This document shows positions 13,621 through 50,665 of a stretch of 64,000 nucleotides of DNA, one piece after another (positions within the stretch are counted from its first letter, which is position 1; each line of letters starts with the position of its first letter). Origin of the DNA: Rhodoblastus sp. 17X3 (GTDB lineage Bacteria > Pseudomonadota > Alphaproteobacteria > Rhizobiales > Beijerinckiaceae); contig NZ_JASHHX010000017.1 of the NCBI RefSeq assembly GCF_030056575.1, positions 1-64,000 of the forward strand, read 5' to 3'. Below the pieces are notes generated by a model. The model ran no database searches. It was given only the letters and a program-made list of their open reading frames with translations, and was not told where the DNA came from. The translations under genes and the position numbers were made by a program.

Positions 13621-14994
13621 CTATTGCACGCTGGCGGCCATCCCCGGAAAGCGCCGAAGCACCCTGTCCTGCTGTTCTGGCGCGACGCGGACAGCGAAAA
13701 AGGCGTGGCCTTCGTCGTCGTTCTCGCGCGACAAGACTTCGGTGTGGGAATAAAGCCAGGCTTGGCCTTCGCCGTCGCCTGCTTCGAGCCGCAGGCTCAG
13801 CACCGGGCGCCCGCGCGCCAGCCGCGTCTCGATGGCTTCCAGCAGAATGTCCAAGCCCTCGCCGGTCGTCGATGAGACCGCGCAGGGCCTCTCGTCTTCC
13901 GGGCGCAACGCCGCCTTGTTCCTGACCCGCTCGCGTTCTTCAGGCGGCAGCAGGTCGGTCTTGTTCCAGACCTCGATCAGACGGTCGCGGTCGTGAACAT
14001 CGATCTCCAGCTCGGCCAGAATTTTCTCGACATCCGCGCTCTGCGCTTCCGCGTCCTCATGGGCGATATCGCGCACGTGCAGGATGATGTCGGCCTCCTG
14101 CACCTCTTCCAGCGTGGCGCGGAAGGCCGAAACCAGCATGTGCGGCAGGTCGGAGATGAAACCCACCGTGTCGGAGAGGATGACCCTGCCGCCATGCGGC
14201 AGCTTCATGCCGCGCAAGGTCGGGTCCAGCGTGGCGAACAGCAGGTCCTTGGCGAAGACTTCCGCATTCGTCAGCCGATTGAACAGTGTCGATTTCCCGG
14301 CATTGGTGTAGCCGACCAGAGCCACGATGGGGAAAGGCACGTCGCGCCGGCTCTTGCGATGCAGGCCGCGCGTTTTCTTGACAGTTTCGAGATCGCGCTC
14401 GATCCGGGTCATCCGCTCCTGGATCAGGCGGCGGTCCGTTTCGATCTGGGTTTCGCCGGGGCCGCCGAGGAAGCCGAAGCCGCCGCGCTGGCGCTCAAGA
14501 TGGGTCCAGGACCGCACGAGCCGCGATTTCTGATAGGTCAGATGGGCGAGTTCGACCTGAAGCGCGCCCTCGGCGGTGCGGGCGCGCTCGCCGAAGATTT
14601 CCAGGATCAGGCCGGTGCGGTCGATCACCTTGGCGCCGAAGGCCTTTTCGAGATTGCGCTGCTGCACCGGCGACAAGGCGCAATCGACCGCCACCAGTTC
14701 GGCTTCGAGCTCCTTGACTTTCTCGGCCAGCTCCTCGACCTTGCCCTTGCCGAGGAACGTCGCCGGACGGATCTGCGAGAGCGGAACGACCTCCTGCCCC
14801 ACGATCTCGACGTCAATGGCAAGGGCGAGCCCGACAGCCTCGGCCATCCGGGCCTCACGCGAGCGCATCGACGTCTCGCCTGCCGCATGGGATGCGGCGC
14901 GGTCGGTCAGATAGGGGCCTATCACCAGGACGCGGGTCTTTGTTTTCCGCCCCAATGGGGACGCGCCTTCGAGGGACGCCGTTTTTTCGTTCAA
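13621..14994 (-). CDS. hflX: GTPase HflX
   Basis: Ribosome-splitting GTPase of the TRAFAC class. The N-terminal HflX domain (RVLVIGPYL onward) leads to [14 protein letters not shown] (G1, near residue 220), [10 protein letters not shown] (G3) and NKTDLL (G4). There is no ATG between the hfq stop and the start of the conserved domain, so I take the TTG at 14994, preceded by GGTGGTGAG, giving 457 residues and a 26-bp gap from hfq. The later ATGs would delete the first strands of the domain. Co-location with hfq is classical and suggests cotranscription. Confidence 0.93.
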
Positions 14995-15020
14995 GCTCGT
15001 CTCACCACCATCTTGGAATG

Positions 15021-15272
15021 TTATTTTTCCGCGCCCTCTTCCGTCGGATCGAACATCTGGATCGGATGGCCGGGCATGATGGTGGATATGGCGTGCTTGT
15101 ACACCAATTGCGAGTGGCCATCGCGGCGCAAAAGCACACAAAAATTATCGAACCAGCTCACGACGCCTTGCAGCTTGACGCCATTGACGAGAAAAATCGT
15201 GAGTGGGATTTTGTTCTTTCGCACGTAGTTGAGGAAAGTATCCTGAAGATTGGGTGTGCGTTCGACCGCCAT
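15021..15272 (-). CDS. hfq: RNA chaperone Hfq
   Basis: Sm-like hexameric RNA chaperone that pairs small RNAs with mRNAs. The 83-residue protein starts at the ATG at 15272 with a TAGGAAT ribosome site. Sm1 motif residues ([19 protein letters not shown]) and the Sm2 motif with YKHAIST are intact. The tail after HPIQMF is short, as in other alphaproteobacteria. A possible promoter is TTGCTT (15406-15401) with TCTAAT (15382-15377), 18-bp spacing, in the 176-bp gap after the aminotransferase gene. The order ntrYX / transaminase / hfq / hflX is common in Hyphomicrobiales. Confidence 0.97.
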
Positions 15273-15376
15273 GTTTATTCCTATTCTCTTTTTTTCCTTG
15301 CGTCGGCCCCAAGACGCTGGCGAGGCTCCAATCCTGAGCTCATGCCAAAACAGGCGCGTTGGGCGCACTTTCGCCT

Positions 15377-45011: not shown

Positions 45012-45032
45012 CGGGCGGATTTACTCCGCCCG
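45012..45032. terminator. Hairpin between bfr and the convergent YceI gene
   Basis: CGGGCGGA/TCCGCCCG, 8 bp with a 5-base loop, beginning just after the bfr stop and spanning the stop codon of the convergent YceI gene. The plus-strand tail is only TTCCCCTTT, so termination may be partial. Confidence 0.45.
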
Positions 45033-45572
45033 TTCCCCTTTCAGGTCAAAATCGACGCCGACCTCGAGGGCGACCCATTCCCCGGTCGCCCATTCCCCCT
45101 GCCCCACGCCGAAGACGTCGCGTTTCAGATCGACATGGCCTTTCGCCTGGGCCTTGCGCCCGTCGATCGCCAGCGTGAAAGGCAGGCGAATCTCCTTTGT
45201 CACGCCGCGCAAGGTCAAGTCGCCCAGCGCTTCATAGCCATTGGCCGCGCGGCTCACCTTGCGGGACTCGAACCGCGCCTGCGGAAAGCGCGCCGCGTCG
45301 AACCATTCCTTCGACGGCATCGCCGTGTCGCGCTGCTTGTCTCCGGTGGCGGCGCTGGCGATATCTACCGTCACGACGATCTTGGCGTCGTCGAGCCTGT
45401 CCGGGTCGAGCGAGACCTGGGCGTCGAAGCGGCTGAACTTGCCCACGAATTTGTCTCCGGTCTGCGTCCCGGAGAAGGTCAGAGCCCTTTCTCCGGGCGC
45501 GAGTTTCCAGTCCGCCGCATGGGAGGCGGACGTCGCCAGAACGAGTGCGGCGAAAGCGGCGGCGAATTTCAT
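45021..45572 (-). CDS. YceI-family periplasmic protein (distal copy)
   Basis: A 183-residue lipocalin-like barrel with a signal peptide (cleavage near AADW, about residue 20). YceI proteins bind polyprenyl chains of quinones, and some are induced by acid or base stress. The pattern SGTQTGDKFVGKFSRFDAQVSLDPD, then MPSKEWFDAARFPQARFES and the LTLRGVTKEIRLPFTLAI motif is the YceI signature. The ATG at 45572 overlaps the cytochrome b561 stop by 4 bases. Last gene of a three-gene operon with two YceI copies around a b-type cytochrome. Confidence 0.9.
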   Translation of the reverse strand: MKFAAAFAALVLATSASHAADWKLAPGERALTFSGTQTGDKFVGKFSRFDAQVSLDPDRLDDAKIVVTVDIASAATGDKQRDTAMPSKEWFDAARFPQARFESRKVSRAANGYEALGDLTLRGVTKEIRLPFTLAIDGRKAQAKGHVDLKRDVFGVGQGEWATGEWVALEVGVDFDLKGERAE

Positions 45573-46153
45573 TTGGCGTTCTCCTTGCGGCCGCCAGACA
45601 GCGACATGCGGGACAGAGGCGCATCGCCCTTGAATGCATGGCGCAAGGCCGCGCCGATATGGATCGCGAGAACGGCGATAAGGGCGAAGGCGCCGTAATC
45701 ATGTGCAAGCTTGAACGCTGCTGCAACAGGCGCCTTGTCGGTCAGTTCGGCCAGGAAGGGAATATGCGGCCAGGACAGAAGCCCGAACAGCACGGTCGGA
45801 ATGTTCAGCGGCGAGGCAGAAACGAAGGCCCAACCGCTCAGCGGCAGCGCGAACATGAAGAGATAGAGCAGGACATGCCCGGCATGGGCGGCCGTCCGCT
45901 CCAGCGCCGGCATCGTCTCCGGCAGCGGCGGCGCACGATGCGTCAACCGCCACGCCAGCCGCACGACGGCCAGAAGCAGAATGACGACGCCAATGGATTT
46001 ATGCAGCTGAAAGAGCTGAAACACGCGCATCTTGGGCAGATCCGCGTGTTTCATCGCCAGTCCGACGCCGATCAAGACGATGATTCCGAGCGCCATCGTC
46101 CAATGCAGGACGACGGCGACCACGTCATAGCGCTGGATCGGCGGCTTGCTCAT
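45569..46153 (-). CDS. Cytochrome b561
   Basis: A 194-residue four-helix membrane cytochrome b. Haem-ligating histidines are expected in VVLHWTMALGI, MKHADLPKMRVFQLFQLHKSIGV, HAGHVLLYLFMFALPLSGW and AHDYGAFALIAVLAIHIGAAL, positions usual for two b haems. It moves electrons between the quinone pool and a periplasmic acceptor. Sitting between two YceI genes (overlap of 4 bp with one, 1 bp gap to the other) makes a YceI/b561 electron-transfer role likely, as in the E. coli yceJ-yceI pair. Confidence 0.92.
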   Translation of the reverse strand: MSKPPIQRYDVVAVVLHWTMALGIIVLIGVGLAMKHADLPKMRVFQLFQLHKSIGVVILLLAVVRLAWRLTHRAPPLPETMPALERTAAHAGHVLLYLFMFALPLSGWAFVSASPLNIPTVLFGLLSWPHIPFLAELTDKAPVAAAFKLAHDYGAFALIAVLAIHIGAALRHAFKGDAPLSRMSLSGGRKENAK

Positions 46154-46154
46154 A

Positions 46155-46763
46155 TTACTGTTGAAGTTCGAAAGCGGCGTTGATGGTCACATGGACCTCG
46201 TCGCCGATCATCGGCGCATATTTCGAGACGCCAAAGTCCGTGCGCTTGATCACGCCTGTTCCCTCAAAGCCGACCGTATAGGCCTTGTCGATCGGATTGA
46301 CACCGGCGCCGACGAAATGCGCCTTGAGCGTCAAGGGCTTGGTCACGCCATGAAGGGTCAGTTCGCCGGCGATGGTCGCCTCATTGGCGCCGGTCGGCGT
46401 CACCTTGGTCGAAACAAACGTCGCCTTGGGATATTTCGCGGCGTCCAGCCATTCCGGGTCCTTCAGCTCGTCGGTAAGCTTCTGCACCGTGGTCAGAATG
46501 GTGGCGGCGTCGACGGAAACTTCAAGTTTCGAGTTTTCCGGCTTGGCGGGGTCAAGCTTCAGCGATCCGGAGGCGCCGGACAGGACGCCGGAGAAATTCG
46601 ACAGGCCGAAATGCGAAACCGTGAAATTGATCTGGGTGTGATAGGGCTCGACCTTGTAAACGCCGGCCTTGACGTCCTTGCCAGCAGCCTCGGCAAGAAC
46701 GGCGGAGCCGGCCCCGGCGAGCAGAAGAGCGCCGATAGCGCCGGCGGCGAGAATGCGATTCAT
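46155..46763 (-). CDS. YceI-family periplasmic protein (first copy)
   Basis: A 202-residue YceI barrel with a signal peptide (about 24 residues, cleavage near VLAEA). YKVEPYHTQINFTVSHFG, then LSGASGSLKLDPAKPE, EWLDAAKYPKATFVS and LTLHGVTKPLTLKAHF are the conserved stretches. It is the first gene of the operon, divergent from a LysR regulator with a 153-bp gap. It differs clearly in sequence from the other YceI here, so the pair may have different ligands or arise from an old duplication. Confidence 0.92.
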   Translation of the reverse strand: MNRILAAGAIGALLLAGAGSAVLAEAAGKDVKAGVYKVEPYHTQINFTVSHFGLSNFSGVLSGASGSLKLDPAKPENSKLEVSVDAATILTTVQKLTDELKDPEWLDAAKYPKATFVSTKVTPTGANEATIAGELTLHGVTKPLTLKAHFVGAGVNPIDKAYTVGFEGTGVIKRTDFGVSKYAPMIGDEVHVTINAAFELQQ

Positions 46764-46916: not shown

Positions 46917-47816
46917 ATGCACGACCGCCTTTCGCTCGATCAGATCCGCACCTTCATCGCCGCCGCCGAAGAAGGCAGCTTCTCCGCCGCCGCGCGCAAG
47001 CTCGGGCGCGCGCAATCGGCGGTGAGCGACCTTGTCCGCCGGATGGAAGAACAGCTTGGCGTCGCCCTGTTCGACCGCGCCAGCCGCTCGCCGACCCTCA
47101 CGGCGGCGGGGCGCCTGCTGCTGAAGGACGCCCGCGTCATCGGCGGCGCGGTCGACTTCCTGAATTTCCGCGCCAAAGGCCTGTCGCAGGGGCTCGAGCC
47201 GGAGCTCTGCGCCGTCATCGACGTCTATTTTCCGTTCCATGCGATCACCGAGGCGGCGAAACATTTTCGCCAGGAGTTCCCCGCCACGCCGCTGCGCCTC
47301 TATGTCGAGGTGTTGGGCGGCGCCACGGAGCCGGTGCTGGATGGCCGCGCCAGCCTCGCCGTCGTCGGCGGCCCCGCGCCCCTTCCCGAGGGCTTAAGCA
47401 GCGAACCGCTCAACGGCGTCGACATCGTCATGGTCGCTGCGCCCGACCACCCGCTCGCAGCTTACGAGGGCGTCATCCCACAAAGCGAACTGGCCAGACA
47501 TGTGCAGCTCGTGCTGACCGAACGCTCCAACCGTTCCGCTGGGCTGGAATATGGCGTGATGTCGCCGACGACCTGGCGGCTGGCTGATCTCTATGCCAAA
47601 CATTCCTTCCTGCTCGGCGGCCTCGGCTGGGGCTCGATGCCGCTGCACGCCGTGGAGCGCGACCTGGCAGAAGGGCGGCTGACGCGGCTCGCGACGCCGG
47701 AAAGCCCGATCACCGGACGGATCGTGCCCATGTCGGCGGTCTATCGCGCCTCGGCGCCGCCCGGACCGGCGGGGCGCTGGCTGATCGACAGGCTGAAGGG
47801 CTGCCCCTCGAATTGA
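46917..47816 (+). CDS. LysR-family transcriptional regulator
   Basis: A 299-residue LysR protein. The winged helix-turn-helix is in the first 65 residues (LDQIRTFIAAAEEGSFSAAA, then VSDLVRRMEEQLGVALFDR). The remaining part is the periplasmic-binding-protein-like effector domain. The ATG at 46917 fits the domain start. A possible upstream extension has no similarity. Divergent to the YceI / cytochrome b561 / YceI operon, which is therefore its probable target. The effector is unknown. Confidence 0.92.
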   Translation: MHDRLSLDQIRTFIAAAEEGSFSAAARKLGRAQSAVSDLVRRMEEQLGVALFDRASRSPTLTAAGRLLLKDARVIGGAVDFLNFRAKGLSQGLEPELCAVIDVYFPFHAITEAAKHFRQEFPATPLRLYVEVLGGATEPVLDGRASLAVVGGPAPLPEGLSSEPLNGVDIVMVAAPDHPLAAYEGVIPQSELARHVQLVLTERSNRSAGLEYGVMSPTTWRLADLYAKHSFLLGGLGWGSMPLHAVERDLAEGRLTRLATPESPITGRIVPMSAVYRASAPPGPAGRWLIDRLKGCPSN

Positions 47817-47836: not shown

Positions 47837-47853
47837 TTTTGAATTATTCTAAT
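47837..47853. promoter_or_regulatory. Irr-box-like palindrome upstream of the OMP/cupredoxin/FTR1 operon
   Basis: TTTTGAA-TTA-TTCTAAT matches the Irr (ICE) arms TTTAGAA / TTCTAAA at 12 of 14 positions. It lies 84 bp upstream of the first gene. Together with the similar site before bfd it suggests shared iron control. The identity of the binding protein is inference. Confidence 0.55.
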
Positions 47854-47937
47854 GAGCAATATTTCGTTTGCGTCTTTTTTGCGACGCAGCAAGAAAGGAT
47901 GGGCAAGCTCATTCACAAGCAGCGCCGGAACGCTTTC

Positions 47938-48828
47938 ATGATCAAGTCCCTGTCCCGCATCGCCTTTTGTTCGGCGGCGTTCTGCGCGCTGGTCGGCGCC
48001 GCGCACGCGCAGGAAGCTTTCTCTGGCCGCTATTACGAGCTTGAGACAAAATATCTGTTCGGCTTTACCCAGGGCACGGATATCGGCGCGGAAGGCGAGA
48101 AGGAATTCGAGTCGGAAACCACCGGCGCCTTCGGCAAGAGAGGCGGGAGCTATCGCGCGATCGAGCAGGAACTGGAATTCGAACACGTCCCCTCGCAATA
48201 TTGGGGCTATGAATTGTCGATCCACGGCCTGTCGCAGCAGATCAATGGCGTAGCGGGCCTGGACGATTTCAACCGGGCGGATTTCGCCGGTCTCTCGTGG
48301 AAGCCCAAATGGCTGATCATCGGGCGCGGCCCCGGCAATCCCATTGGCCTGTCGCTCTCGGTTCAGCCGGAATGGGGCCGCAGCGTCGGACCCAATGGCG
48401 TCCACGCCAATAGTTTCGCCATGGAGACGCGCCTCGCCGCCGATACCGAGCTGATTCCGAATATGCTTTATGCAGCGGCGAACCTGATCTACGCCCCGGA
48501 GGTCGAGCGCGCGCCCGGCGATCCGAGCTGGAGCCGGTCCTCTGGCTTCGGAGCCACCGCCGCCATGGCCTATCGTGTGACGCCCCAGGCCACGCTCGGC
48601 GGCGAAGTGGAATATTACCGCGCCTATGACGGCTTCGGCTTCAATACTTACAGTGGCGGCGCCTTGTATCTGGGACCGACCTTGCACATCCAGTTCAGTC
48701 CGAAGATATTCCTCGCCGCCGCCTGGTCGTTCCAGGTCGCGGGCCGCGCGCAGGGCGAGACCGGAAGTCTCGACCTGACCAATTTCGAACGCCAATACGC
48801 GAATTTGAAGGTCGGCTTCGAATTCTGA
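47938..48828 (+). CDS. Outer-membrane beta-barrel protein of an iron operon
   Basis: A 296-residue exported protein of a family I do not recognise. The signal peptide is clear (hydrophobic stretch with AFCALVGAAHAQ, cleavage near residue 25). Alternating aromatic and polar strands and the final phenylalanine (LKVGFEF) mark a BAM-inserted outer-membrane barrel. The ATG at 47938 gives a normal signal peptide. An upstream ATG at 47899 would add 13 residues. A cupredoxin and FTR1 permease follow at 32 and 10 bp spacing, so it probably helps iron or another metal pass the outer membrane. This role is inferred from context only. Confidence 0.7.
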   Translation: MIKSLSRIAFCSAAFCALVGAAHAQEAFSGRYYELETKYLFGFTQGTDIGAEGEKEFESETTGAFGKRGGSYRAIEQELEFEHVPSQYWGYELSIHGLSQQINGVAGLDDFNRADFAGLSWKPKWLIIGRGPGNPIGLSLSVQPEWGRSVGPNGVHANSFAMETRLAADTELIPNMLYAAANLIYAPEVERAPGDPSWSRSSGFGATAAMAYRVTPQATLGGEVEYYRAYDGFGFNTYSGGALYLGPTLHIQFSPKIFLAAAWSFQVAGRAQGETGSLDLTNFERQYANLKVGFEF

Positions 48829-48860
48829 CCCTTTGGCCCGCCTATCACTGGGAGAAGAAA

Positions 48861-49193
48861 ATGAAAGCTGCACGCAATTCCGCCCTTATCGCCCTCGCGC
48901 TGCTGTTCGCCGCGCCCGCACTGGCGCAGCAGGCAAGCGTGCGCCTGACGATCAAGGACCATAAGTTCTCGCCTGCCGAAGCGCGCGCCCCGGCCAACCA
49001 GGCCTTCACCATCGTTGTGAAAAACCTGGACTCGACCGCCGCCGAATTCGAGAGCAAGAGCTTGCGCGTCGAAAAGATCATCGCGCCCGGCGGCGAAGTC
49101 TCGATGCAGATCCGTCCGCTCAACGCCGGCCGCTATCGCTTCTTCGACGATTTCCATCAGGCCACGACCGAAGGCGAACTCGTCGTCGAATAG
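48861..49193 (+). CDS. Periplasmic cupredoxin-domain protein (FtrB-like)
   Basis: A 110-residue periplasmic protein with a signal peptide (cleavage near PALAQ) and a plastocyanin-like beta-sandwich: VRLTIKDHKFSPAEARAPAN, the FTIVVKNLDSTAAEFES strand and the late GRYRFFDDFHQ. It belongs to the cupredoxin_1/EfeO-like group that accompanies FTR1 ferrous-iron permeases. It contains no cysteine, so it cannot form an ordinary type 1 copper site. It keeps the acidic EFES and VEK region that in the group may bind metal. It is 10 bp upstream of the permease. Confidence 0.82.
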   Translation: MKAARNSALIALALLFAAPALAQQASVRLTIKDHKFSPAEARAPANQAFTIVVKNLDSTAAEFESKSLRVEKIIAPGGEVSMQIRPLNAGRYRFFDDFHQATTEGELVVE

Positions 49194-49203
49194 GAATCAG
49201 GAA

Positions 49204-50025
49204 ATGCTGGGCGCGCTGATCATTGTCTTTCGTGAAGTCATCGAGGCCGGCCTGATCGTCGGCATCGTGCTTGCGGTCACGCGCGGCGTGCCGGGCCGCG
49301 GCGCCTATGTCGGCGGCGGATTGGCCGCTGGCCTGCTCGGCGCCGCGATGGTCGCGGTTTTCGCCGGCGCGCTCGCCGACGCCTTTTCGGGCGCGGGGCA
49401 GGAATTGTTCAACGCCGGCATCCTCGCCCTCGCGGTCGTCATGCTCGCTTGGCACAACATCTGGATGGCGAGCCACGGCCGCGAAATGGCCGCCAACCTG
49501 CGCAGTGTCGGCGTCGCGGTCGCGGAAGGCTCGCAGAGCATGACGGCTTTGGCCGTGGTCGTCGCCGTCGCGGTCCTGCGCGAAGGCTCGGAGGTCGTGC
49601 TGTTTCTCTACGGGATCGCGGCTTCGGGAACGGCCGGATTCGGCCAGTTGCTGCTCGGCGGCCTGATCGGGCTCGCGCTCGGCGGCGCGCTGTCCCTGTT
49701 GATGTTCTATGGCCTCGTCGCAATACCGGCCCGCTATCTTTTCACCGTGACCACCGCGCTCATCACCTTCCTCGCCGCCGGCATGGCGTCGCAATGCGTG
49801 GTGTTCCTCCAGCAGGCGGGCCTCGTCACCGCTCTCTCTGGCACGCTATGGGACACGTCGGCGATCCTGCCCGACGATTCCATCGCCGGCCGCATCGCCC
49901 ATGTTCTGTTCGGCTATGTGGATCAGCCCTCGGGCGCGCAGGCGCTTGTCTATTTCCTGGCGCTTGCCGGCATTTTCATCGCCACCCGCCTTGCCGCGCC
50001 CGCGCGCCGGCCCGCCGCCGCCTGA
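49204..50025 (+). CDS. FTR1-family iron permease
   Basis: A 273-residue membrane permease with about seven TM helices. The two REXXE iron motifs are present: REVIE near residue 10 in IVFREVIEAG and REGSE near residue 125 in LREGSEVVLF. These carry ferric iron in FTR1/EfeU proteins. Iron is oxidised outside and passed through. With the cupredoxin it corresponds to the FtrB-FtrC core of FtrABCD, but FtrA (P19-like) and FtrD (polyferredoxin) are not here. A barrel protein lies upstream instead. Confidence 0.9.
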   Translation: MLGALIIVFREVIEAGLIVGIVLAVTRGVPGRGAYVGGGLAAGLLGAAMVAVFAGALADAFSGAGQELFNAGILALAVVMLAWHNIWMASHGREMAANLRSVGVAVAEGSQSMTALAVVVAVAVLREGSEVVLFLYGIAASGTAGFGQLLLGGLIGLALGGALSLLMFYGLVAIPARYLFTVTTALITFLAAGMASQCVVFLQQAGLVTALSGTLWDTSAILPDDSIAGRIAHVLFGYVDQPSGAQALVYFLALAGIFIATRLAAPARRPAAA

Positions 50026-50212
50026 AACCCCGCGAAACCGCATTTAAATTGACGCGCATCATGGCGGCGAGGCCCGGCGTCGCCTATGTTCAAACATGGC
50101 GGAGGAAACCAAAGGCGCCGGCCCGAGCGCTGGCCCCGGGGTGCAACAACCGCCCCGCCTCCGGCAAGCCGCGCCAAAAGCGGCGGTCCACCCGAAAGTC
50201 GGGAGCAGTATC

Positions 50213-50665
50213 GTGAGCAAAATCGCCCTTCCACATGACGCATTCGTCTTCGTCGGCGACGGTCGCAAGGCGCTATTCCTGCGCAATGAGGGGGATGAGA
50301 AATTCGCCAATCTGGTCACGGAGCGCGTGTTGAACGGAGAGGAAAATCCGCCGACGCACGAGCAAGGCAGCGACCGCCCCGGTCGCGCTTATACAAGCGC
50401 TGGATTGGGCGCGCGCAGTTCTGTCGAAATGACCGACTGGCATGAAATTGAAGAGCATCGTTTCGCCCAGCGCGCCGCCGAAGCGCTCGAAGTTCTCGTG
50501 CGCGAACGCGGAACCCGGGTTCTGGTGATCGCAGCGCCCGCCAGGACGCTCGCCGACTTGCGGCGCACTCTCCACGCTGACGTCAAGAGCAAGGTGATCG
50601 CCGAGATCGACAAGGATTTCACCAAGATCCCCGTCTGGGAGATCGAAAAACATATCCTCGGCTGA
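50213..50665 (+). CDS. Host-attachment family protein
   Basis: A 150-residue cytoplasmic protein of the group annotated 'protein required for attachment to host cells', described from Agrobacterium and structurally close to eRF1/baeRF fold proteins. The conserved start HDAFVFVGDGRKALFLRN, the middle HEIEEHRFAQRAAEAL and RVLVIAAPARTLADLR are visible. I chose the GTG at 50213 with GGGAG 7 bases upstream. An ATG at 50096 would add a Pro/Ala-rich 39-residue extension lacking family similarity and ribosome site. Actual biochemical function is not established. Confidence 0.82.
   Translation: MSKIALPHDAFVFVGDGRKALFLRNEGDEKFANLVTERVLNGEENPPTHEQGSDRPGRAYTSAGLGARSSVEMTDWHEIEEHRFAQRAAEALEVLVRERGTRVLVIAAPARTLADLRRTLHADVKSKVIAEIDKDFTKIPVWEIEKHILG

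Follow-up and report, generated by a model that had tools for sequence, protein, structure and literature searches.

An outer-membrane barrel linked to an FtrB-like cupredoxin and an FTR1 permease in an Irr-boxed operon of Rhodoblastus and related bacteria

The passage of free Fe2+ across the outer membrane is usually credited to general porins. For the step from periplasm to cytoplasm, described systems built around an FTR1-family permease include FtrABCD of Brucella and Bordetella, where a cupredoxin (FtrB) and the permease (FtrC) occur with FtrA (P19-type, PF10634) and FtrD, and EfeUOB or EfeUOB-M, where the permease EfeU is accompanied by the M75 protein EfeO and the DyP peroxidase EfeB. 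A third known element is the 12-stranded fold of the COG4313 (Phenol_MetA_deg) channels, such as Pput2725, SphA and TcpY, located in the outer membrane. The union of these elements in one operon with an Irr-like box was not seen in the literature we searched. Here, we describe such an operon, encoding an outer-membrane barrel, a cupredoxin and an FTR1 permease, at positions 47,837 to 50,025 of a 64,000-nucleotide stretch of DNA from Rhodoblastus sp. 17X3 (contig NZ_JASHHX010000017.1; hereafter the window). The window belongs to contig 9 among the 68 contigs of this 4.18-Mb genome. The operon consists of the following features, where the palindrome is scored, as are all others below, against the Irr/ICE consensus TTTAGAA-N3-TTCTAAA.

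47837..47853, no strand assigned: Irr/ICE-like palindrome TTTTGAATTATTCTAAT, agreeing with the consensus at 12 of 14 positions
47938..48828, + strand: outer-membrane barrel, 296 residues, assigned from PF13557, alignments, an AlphaFold2 model and a fold search
48861..49193, + strand: periplasmic FtrB-like cupredoxin, 110 residues, assigned from its match to 8vuk, PF13473 and the spacing of the FtrB residues
49204..50025, + strand: FTR1-family inner-membrane permease (FtrC-like), 273 residues, assigned from PF03239 and two REXXE motifs

The three genes are tightly packed on the + strand with spacers of 32 and 10 base pairs (bp), and both the open reading frames (ORFs) and the Pfam matches agree with the gene set given in a preliminary description of this DNA. 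The palindrome lies in the 121-bp spacer that follows a LysR gene. We propose, with a probability of roughly 60%, that the operon encodes an Irr-controlled ferrous iron importer of the FtrB-FTR1 (FtrBC) type that has acquired an outer-membrane channel of its own. The acid-rich, 12-stranded barrel would admit Fe2+ or a small iron complex to the periplasm. The cupredoxin would bind the iron and, by analogy with the model for FtrABCD, help to oxidize it, while the FTR1 permease would move it across the inner membrane via its REXXE sites. Expression of the operon would be set by Irr. The genes, the FtrB and REXXE residues, the predicted fold, the conserved linkage and the enrichment of the box are results of this analysis, whereas the iron cargo, the direction of transport, the role of the barrel as the path, the oxidation step and the activating role of Irr are inferred.

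The permease matches Pfam PF03239 (E-value 3.8e-27) and contains two REXXE motifs, REVIE (residues 10–14) and REGSE (residues 126–130). The R and E residues of both motifs are invariant in all 8 aligned rows. REXXE is the defining iron motif of the FTR1 family. The EfeU and TIGR00145 models also match the permease, both below their cut-offs, and the score against the EfeU equivalog NF041756 (124.3 bits) is far under the required 255. The cupredoxin matches Brucella FtrB (PDB 8vuk) with an E-value of 5e-16 and PF13473 with an E-value of 5e-31. The residues reported as conserved in Brucella FtrB (PMC11966278) are E84, E86, E93, D118 and H121; these are matched with identical spacing by E62, E64, E71, D96 and H99 of the cupredoxin. 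Across 10 aligned rows, E62, E64, E71 and D96 are invariant, and H99 is present in 9. The operon resembles FtrABCD in its FTR1-type permease and in a cupredoxin that retains all five FtrB residues, but differs in the absence of FtrA and FtrD and in the added barrel. The genes that flank it, identified by a Pfam scan, are:

46917-47816: LysR gene, upstream flank of the operon
50096-50665: Host_attach/baeRF12 gene, downstream flank of the operon

Neither FtrA nor FtrD is found in the operon or in these flanks, as had been described. A complete FtrABCD set is present elsewhere in the genome (contig C55), with a Fer4_5 protein after its FTR1. The likeness to EfeUOB and EfeUOB-M is confined to the FTR1-family permease and to the cupredoxin, which falls in the EfeO-type cupredoxin group according to the entry name of 8vuk. 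Unlike in EfeUOB, the five Pfam-scanned genes (the operon and the two genes directly flanking it) encode neither an EfeO M75 domain nor an EfeB DyP peroxidase. Further upstream, a YceI–cytochrome b561–YceI set (window 45021-46763, − strand) is divergent from the LysR gene, and two relatives (L035 and L054) have similar-looking genes at the corresponding position.

The barrel, which carries a signal peptide as judged by eye, scores exactly at the threshold of Pfam PF13557, Phenol_MetA_deg (22.0 bits, cut-off 22, E-value 1.8e-4), and shows a weak match to BBP2. PF13557 is matched by 20 of 67 homologues, and PF20367 (DUF6662) by 18, at an E-value of 0.01. A profile built from the 67 rows detected no sequence relatives in the PDB at E-values up to 1, and a single-sequence search of the PDB returned one chance-level match (E-value 2.6). 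The AlphaFold2 model, computed from the 67-row alignment, has a mean predicted local distance difference test score (pLDDT) of 90.3 and a predicted template modelling score (pTM) of 0.83, and places its 12 strands within residues 55–295. The stretch before strand 1 (residues ~40–54), a candidate counterpart of the N-terminal segment that occludes the lumen of COG4313 channels, is conserved and confidently modelled; a conserved motif, FGFTxGxDIGxxGE, lies ahead of the strand in the alignment.

A Foldseek search with this model returned the amyloid secretion channel FapF in its top 18 rows (E-values of 2e-9 and weaker), followed by EstA, NanC, NalP and others, with Pput2725 of COG4313 (4rl8) in 27th place (E-value 7e-6). 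VIA-align superimposes the barrel on FapF with a Z-score of 23.5 (root-mean-square deviation (rmsd) 2.8, 238 residues, 10% identity) and on 4rl8 with a Z-score of 22.4 (rmsd 2.8, 239 residues, 11% identity), while autotransporter barrels trail close behind at 21.5 and below. The predicted fold is therefore 12-stranded and closest to FapF and COG4313, by a margin that is not wide. Since the autotransporter scores are nearly as high and 4rl8 is only 27th by Foldseek E-value, the fold by itself is insufficient to assign the family. The barrel had been described as belonging to no recognized family; the FapF/COG4313-like fold found by the structure search overturns this, and a barrel wholly unknown to the databases is ruled out.

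FapF is the best fold match, but it exports amyloid, and no Fap genes are among the five Pfam-scanned genes here. The COG4313 channels share with the barrel the 12 strands, a similar length and the segment before the first strand. They differ in sequence (11% identity) and in genomic setting, being found with degradation or sphingosine genes rather than with iron genes, and the barrel here has an acid-rich predicted lumen. Its inward-facing strand residues, with facing assigned by hydrophobicity, comprise 18 acidic and 6 basic side chains. Conserved acidic residues of the barrel include E56, D169, E171 and E223. Mean inward charges are 18.0 acidic and 7.4 basic residues in 30 rows mostly from the clade linked to cupredoxin and FTR1 (L115–L146), compared to 12.6 and 9.1 in 29 other rows (L154–L194), the two groups being taken by locus number and thus not exact clades. 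An acid-rich lumen would suit a cation path, although the measure is rough, facing having been derived from hydrophobicity and not from coordinates. By role, the barrel can be likened to MnoP (blr0095), the manganese channel of Bradyrhizobium japonicum, a member of the same order, where the idea is likewise that a divalent metal has an outer-membrane channel of its own (PMC6011978).

Loci were gathered from several genome sets. Of 111 barrel relatives from named genomes, the best 80 were retained; the scan required one short peptide pattern, so that relatives lacking the pattern were missed. As our home-made gene caller overlooked some short cupredoxins, linkage was scored by profiles on open frames. 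The barrel, cupredoxin and FTR1 follow one another directly, in this order, at 26 of these 80 loci. One further locus (L145, 4393-9005) encodes a barrel and a cupredoxin followed by FtrA, FtrB, FtrD and FtrC on one strand, and thus carries two cupredoxins. A barrel and a cupredoxin are present, with FTR1 not found, at 8 loci, two of which run off their contigs (L125 about 0.4 kb from the cupredoxin, L169 inside it). The remaining 45 barrels have no cupredoxin, and one that was scored as alone, L135, ends within the barrel itself. The trio occurs in Rhodoblastus, Methylocella tundrae, Methylocapsa acidiphila (strain B2) and Methylocapsa palsarum, several Bradyrhizobium (for example strain ARR65) and many metagenome genomes; its order is maintained down to 38–43% barrel identity and across families. 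By barrel, the closest named relative among the 80 is Rhodoblastus sp. BP08 (88% identity). The earlier suggestion that the outer-membrane barrel truly belongs to the unit is thus borne out by conserved co-occurrence in other genera.

In a second set of 60 genomes (the own genome and related ones), 22 have a barrel match. All nine full-length copies with at least 50% identity, including that of the window, adjoin a cupredoxin, which is followed by FTR1 in seven; no cupredoxin was found at the loci of the remaining barrel rows in this sample. The count of close copies omitted a 61-residue fragment (54% identity), which is half of a barrel paralog in the own genome that is split over two frames (L006:6385-7319; contig C3, about 14387-15285). 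By eye, this split paralog adjoins hydrogenase-like genes, and a relative (L039) has an intact copy in an equivalent setting; the split reflects either a sequencing error or a pseudogene. In a third set, a sample of 219 genomes of the family, FTR1 matches are present in 143 and barrel matches in 92. Comparison of the best 100 FTR1 rows (92 genomes) with the best 51 barrel rows (44 genomes) gives 19 adjacent pairs in 18 genomes. Among the FTR1 loci of the family, 30 were fetched, and 10 of these have both a barrel and a cupredoxin within about 1.5 kb.

The same linkage is apparent in a tree of 80 barrels, from which L169 was dropped (its barrel match is in two pieces) and in which the midpoint root serves for drawing only. 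A starred branch (100/99) of 42 rows contains all 28 linked barrels, including those of the window and L145, together with all seven that have a cupredoxin only and seven that stand alone. The 38 barrels outside this branch all stand alone, without a cupredoxin. This pattern points to a single ancient linkage followed by losses, with one side branch of unlinked barrels in Rhodoblastus. A chance neighborhood is ruled out by the linkage at 27 of 80 loci and by the clustering on the tree.

The palindrome provides the connection to iron control. When the palindromes ahead of the 26 full operons were counted blindly, TTAGAA-N3 ranked first (9 of 26); the count for the 45 unlinked barrels showed no such motif. 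A box score of at least 11/14 is reached upstream of 16 of the 26 full operons and 4 of 9 barrel-cupredoxin loci (with L145 counted among the latter). The corresponding numbers are 2 of 45 for the unlinked barrels and 9 of 551 for the other upstream regions at these loci. The 551 regions are the background that we relied on, single-base shuffles having been used in a first scan; the difference between full operons and this background corresponds to a Fisher p-value of 1.6e-18, uncorrected for shared ancestry. Both exceptions among the unlinked barrels are R. acidophilus barrels standing alone, with boxes of 14/14 (L173 and L174). In R. acidophilus MO, a barrel-less cupredoxin-FTR1 pair is located elsewhere, at the LysR/Host_attach locus, behind a box of 13/14 (L061), while in R. 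acidophilus DSM 142 this locus has FTR1 without a cupredoxin, a repeat-rich gap and a box of 12/14 (L062). A manganese Mur-type box was also considered for the unlinked barrels and rejected, as the regular expression matched only 2 of 45 and no consistent palindrome motif emerged. Upstream of the cupredoxin at three barrel-less cupredoxin-FTR1 loci (L075, L076 and L082), another palindrome close to CTGGA-N5-TCCAG was noticed by eye, which is possibly the site of a different regulator.

In the 4.18-Mb genome, the pattern TTTNGAANNNTTCTAA occurs at four sites, and the reversed control at none. The Irr-like box claimed earlier ahead of the operon is one of them; the other three precede FtrA of the complete FtrABCD set, irr, and a 79-residue ORF that lies ahead of a TonB-dependent receptor. 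The Irr protein of this genome (L204:2105-2605) matches the NCBIfam model IrrA NF045678 with 152.4 bits (cut-off 150), but falls below the cut-off of another Irr model, NF045677 (147.5 compared to 170). The box is linked to iron, and Irr probably controls the operon, presumably as an activator rather than a repressor. The opposite sign would allow a different role, in which the unit serves iron release or detoxification and is repressed by Irr under iron scarcity. Repression of target genes by Irr at low iron has been reported in several species (PMC3413700), and for Brucella ftrA, where a link to Irr is likewise reported, accounts of the direction of regulation disagree (PMC10374146). However, two of the other boxed loci in this genome, FtrABCD and the TonB-dependent receptor operon, belong to uptake families, and we consider a release function quite improbable.

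Several observations weigh against the proposed importer. The barrel is present in only 4 of 337 genomes of a class-wide sample (E-value 1e-20), which rules out class-wide spread; at the same E-value, FTR1 is present in 43 of these genomes, and the two are adjacent, by their listed places, only in the genome of the window. Within the family, 15 genomes hold barrel and FTR1 apart, considering the same best rows as above. Within about 1.5 kb, 17 of the 30 fetched FTR1 loci have a cupredoxin but lack a barrel, and three lack both:

L062, L063 and L064: FTR1 loci without cupredoxin or barrel

The barrel is thus not needed for the cupredoxin-FTR1 core. Barrel-cupredoxin pairs without FTR1 also exist, at 8 of the 80 loci and in 2 of the 9 close copies. 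Box counts and tree share ancestry, so that the p-values overstate independence, and only 2 of the 17 barrel-less cupredoxin-FTR1 loci reach a box score of 11; the box therefore tracks the barrel more than it tracks the core. Finally, COG4313 channels have been implicated in the uptake of hydrophobic molecules, and Pput2725, which passes ions in vitro, was judged an unlikely route for hydrophilic molecules (PMC4493636). As the core is common without it, the barrel is a lineage-specific addition to a wider cupredoxin-FTR1 core. The operon had been called a minimal, undescribed route for iron or another metal. A literature search that covered few subscription papers found no description of an Irr-boxed barrel-cupredoxin-FTR1 operon, so "undescribed" stands; "minimal" is too strong, given the barrel-less pairs and the full FtrABCD set in the same genome.

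The main rival explanation follows from the barrel superfamily. The barrel may import an organic helper, for instance a hydrophobic iron ligand, phenolic or otherwise, or the iron complex of this ligand, with the cupredoxin and FTR1 using the iron released in the periplasm. Its fold and borderline Pfam match, both pointing to COG4313/PF13557 with the reported hydrophobic cargoes, are consistent with such a role, as is the fact that the barrel and the cupredoxin-FTR1 pair are separable. Nevertheless, the acidic predicted lumen would be better for cations, although facing was assigned by hydrophobicity, and we regard ligand import as unlikely. It could also be argued that the barrel is a mere neighbor with no functional tie to the other two proteins, in view of the 45 barrel loci without a cupredoxin and the 17 cupredoxin-FTR1 pairs without a barrel. 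This is highly improbable: the gene order, with the box ahead of the barrel, is held in different families and at low barrel identity, and in R. acidophilus MO, where the barrel is separate, the barrel (L173) and the cupredoxin-FTR1 pair (L061) are both boxed.

The settings of the unlinked barrels bear on the question of cargo. A starred clade of 12 such barrels from Bradyrhizobium, Afipia and their kin is found in a methanol-oxidation setting:

L155, L157, L158, L160–L166, L168 and L171: methanol-oxidation barrel clade, with the barrel near the middle of most loci

This clade is not sister to the linked clade. Its neighbors include a pyrroloquinoline quinone (PQQ) alcohol dehydrogenase at 7 of 12 loci and an NMT1-type ATP-binding cassette (ABC) protein at 12 of 12, assigned by family model in L158 and L166 and by BLAST to these in the others. 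In L163 (3740-4911), a four-EF-hand, lanmodulin-like protein and a short PqqA-like ORF directly precede the barrel; the names lanmodulin, PqqA and XoxF are presumptive and assigned by eye. The barrel of this clade is a candidate channel for lanthanides or PQQ. Other unlinked barrels lie beside CusA/CzcA heavy-metal efflux pumps (L154 and L188 by family model; L167, L189 and L190 by BLAST). At L119 (1017-6199), a barrel-cupredoxin pair without FTR1, preceded by a box of 13/14, follows CusB/CusA-type pump and DUF3240 genes on the same strand.

These neighborhoods allow that the operon imports a metal other than iron, copper or manganese for example, with the cupredoxin as its carrier. The barrels that adjoin CusA/CzcA pumps, or the PQQ alcohol dehydrogenase and the lanmodulin-like gene, favor this idea, as does the pair at L119, and Brucella FtrB is reported to bind Cu2+ in vitro (PMC11966278). 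However, both REXXE motifs of the permease indicate iron, as does the Irr-type box common to irr, FtrABCD and the TonB-dependent receptor operon, and another metal as the cargo of this operon appears improbable.

For the barrel family as a whole, the neighborhoods raise the chance that it serves metals, although methanol oxidation offers other cargoes too. Tentatively, these barrels could represent a novel group of metal channels in the outer membrane of Hyphomicrobiales: an iron branch associated with FtrB and FTR1; a branch for lanthanides associated with PQQ alcohol dehydrogenase, NMT1-type ABC proteins and, once, a lanmodulin-like protein; and others located beside CusA/CzcA pumps. We consider this wider proposal possible but doubtful.

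With a specific barrel tied to a periplasm-to-cytoplasm iron pump in a conserved operon, the outer-membrane step of Fe2+ uptake would become testable. Such an operon would also suggest a cargo for a channel superfamily that has otherwise been connected with hydrophobic molecules, and the other branch of the same barrels is a candidate for lanthanide entry in methanol-oxidizing bacteria. If the wider proposal is true, bacteria would possess dedicated channels for scarce metals, not powered by TonB, on top of their general porins.

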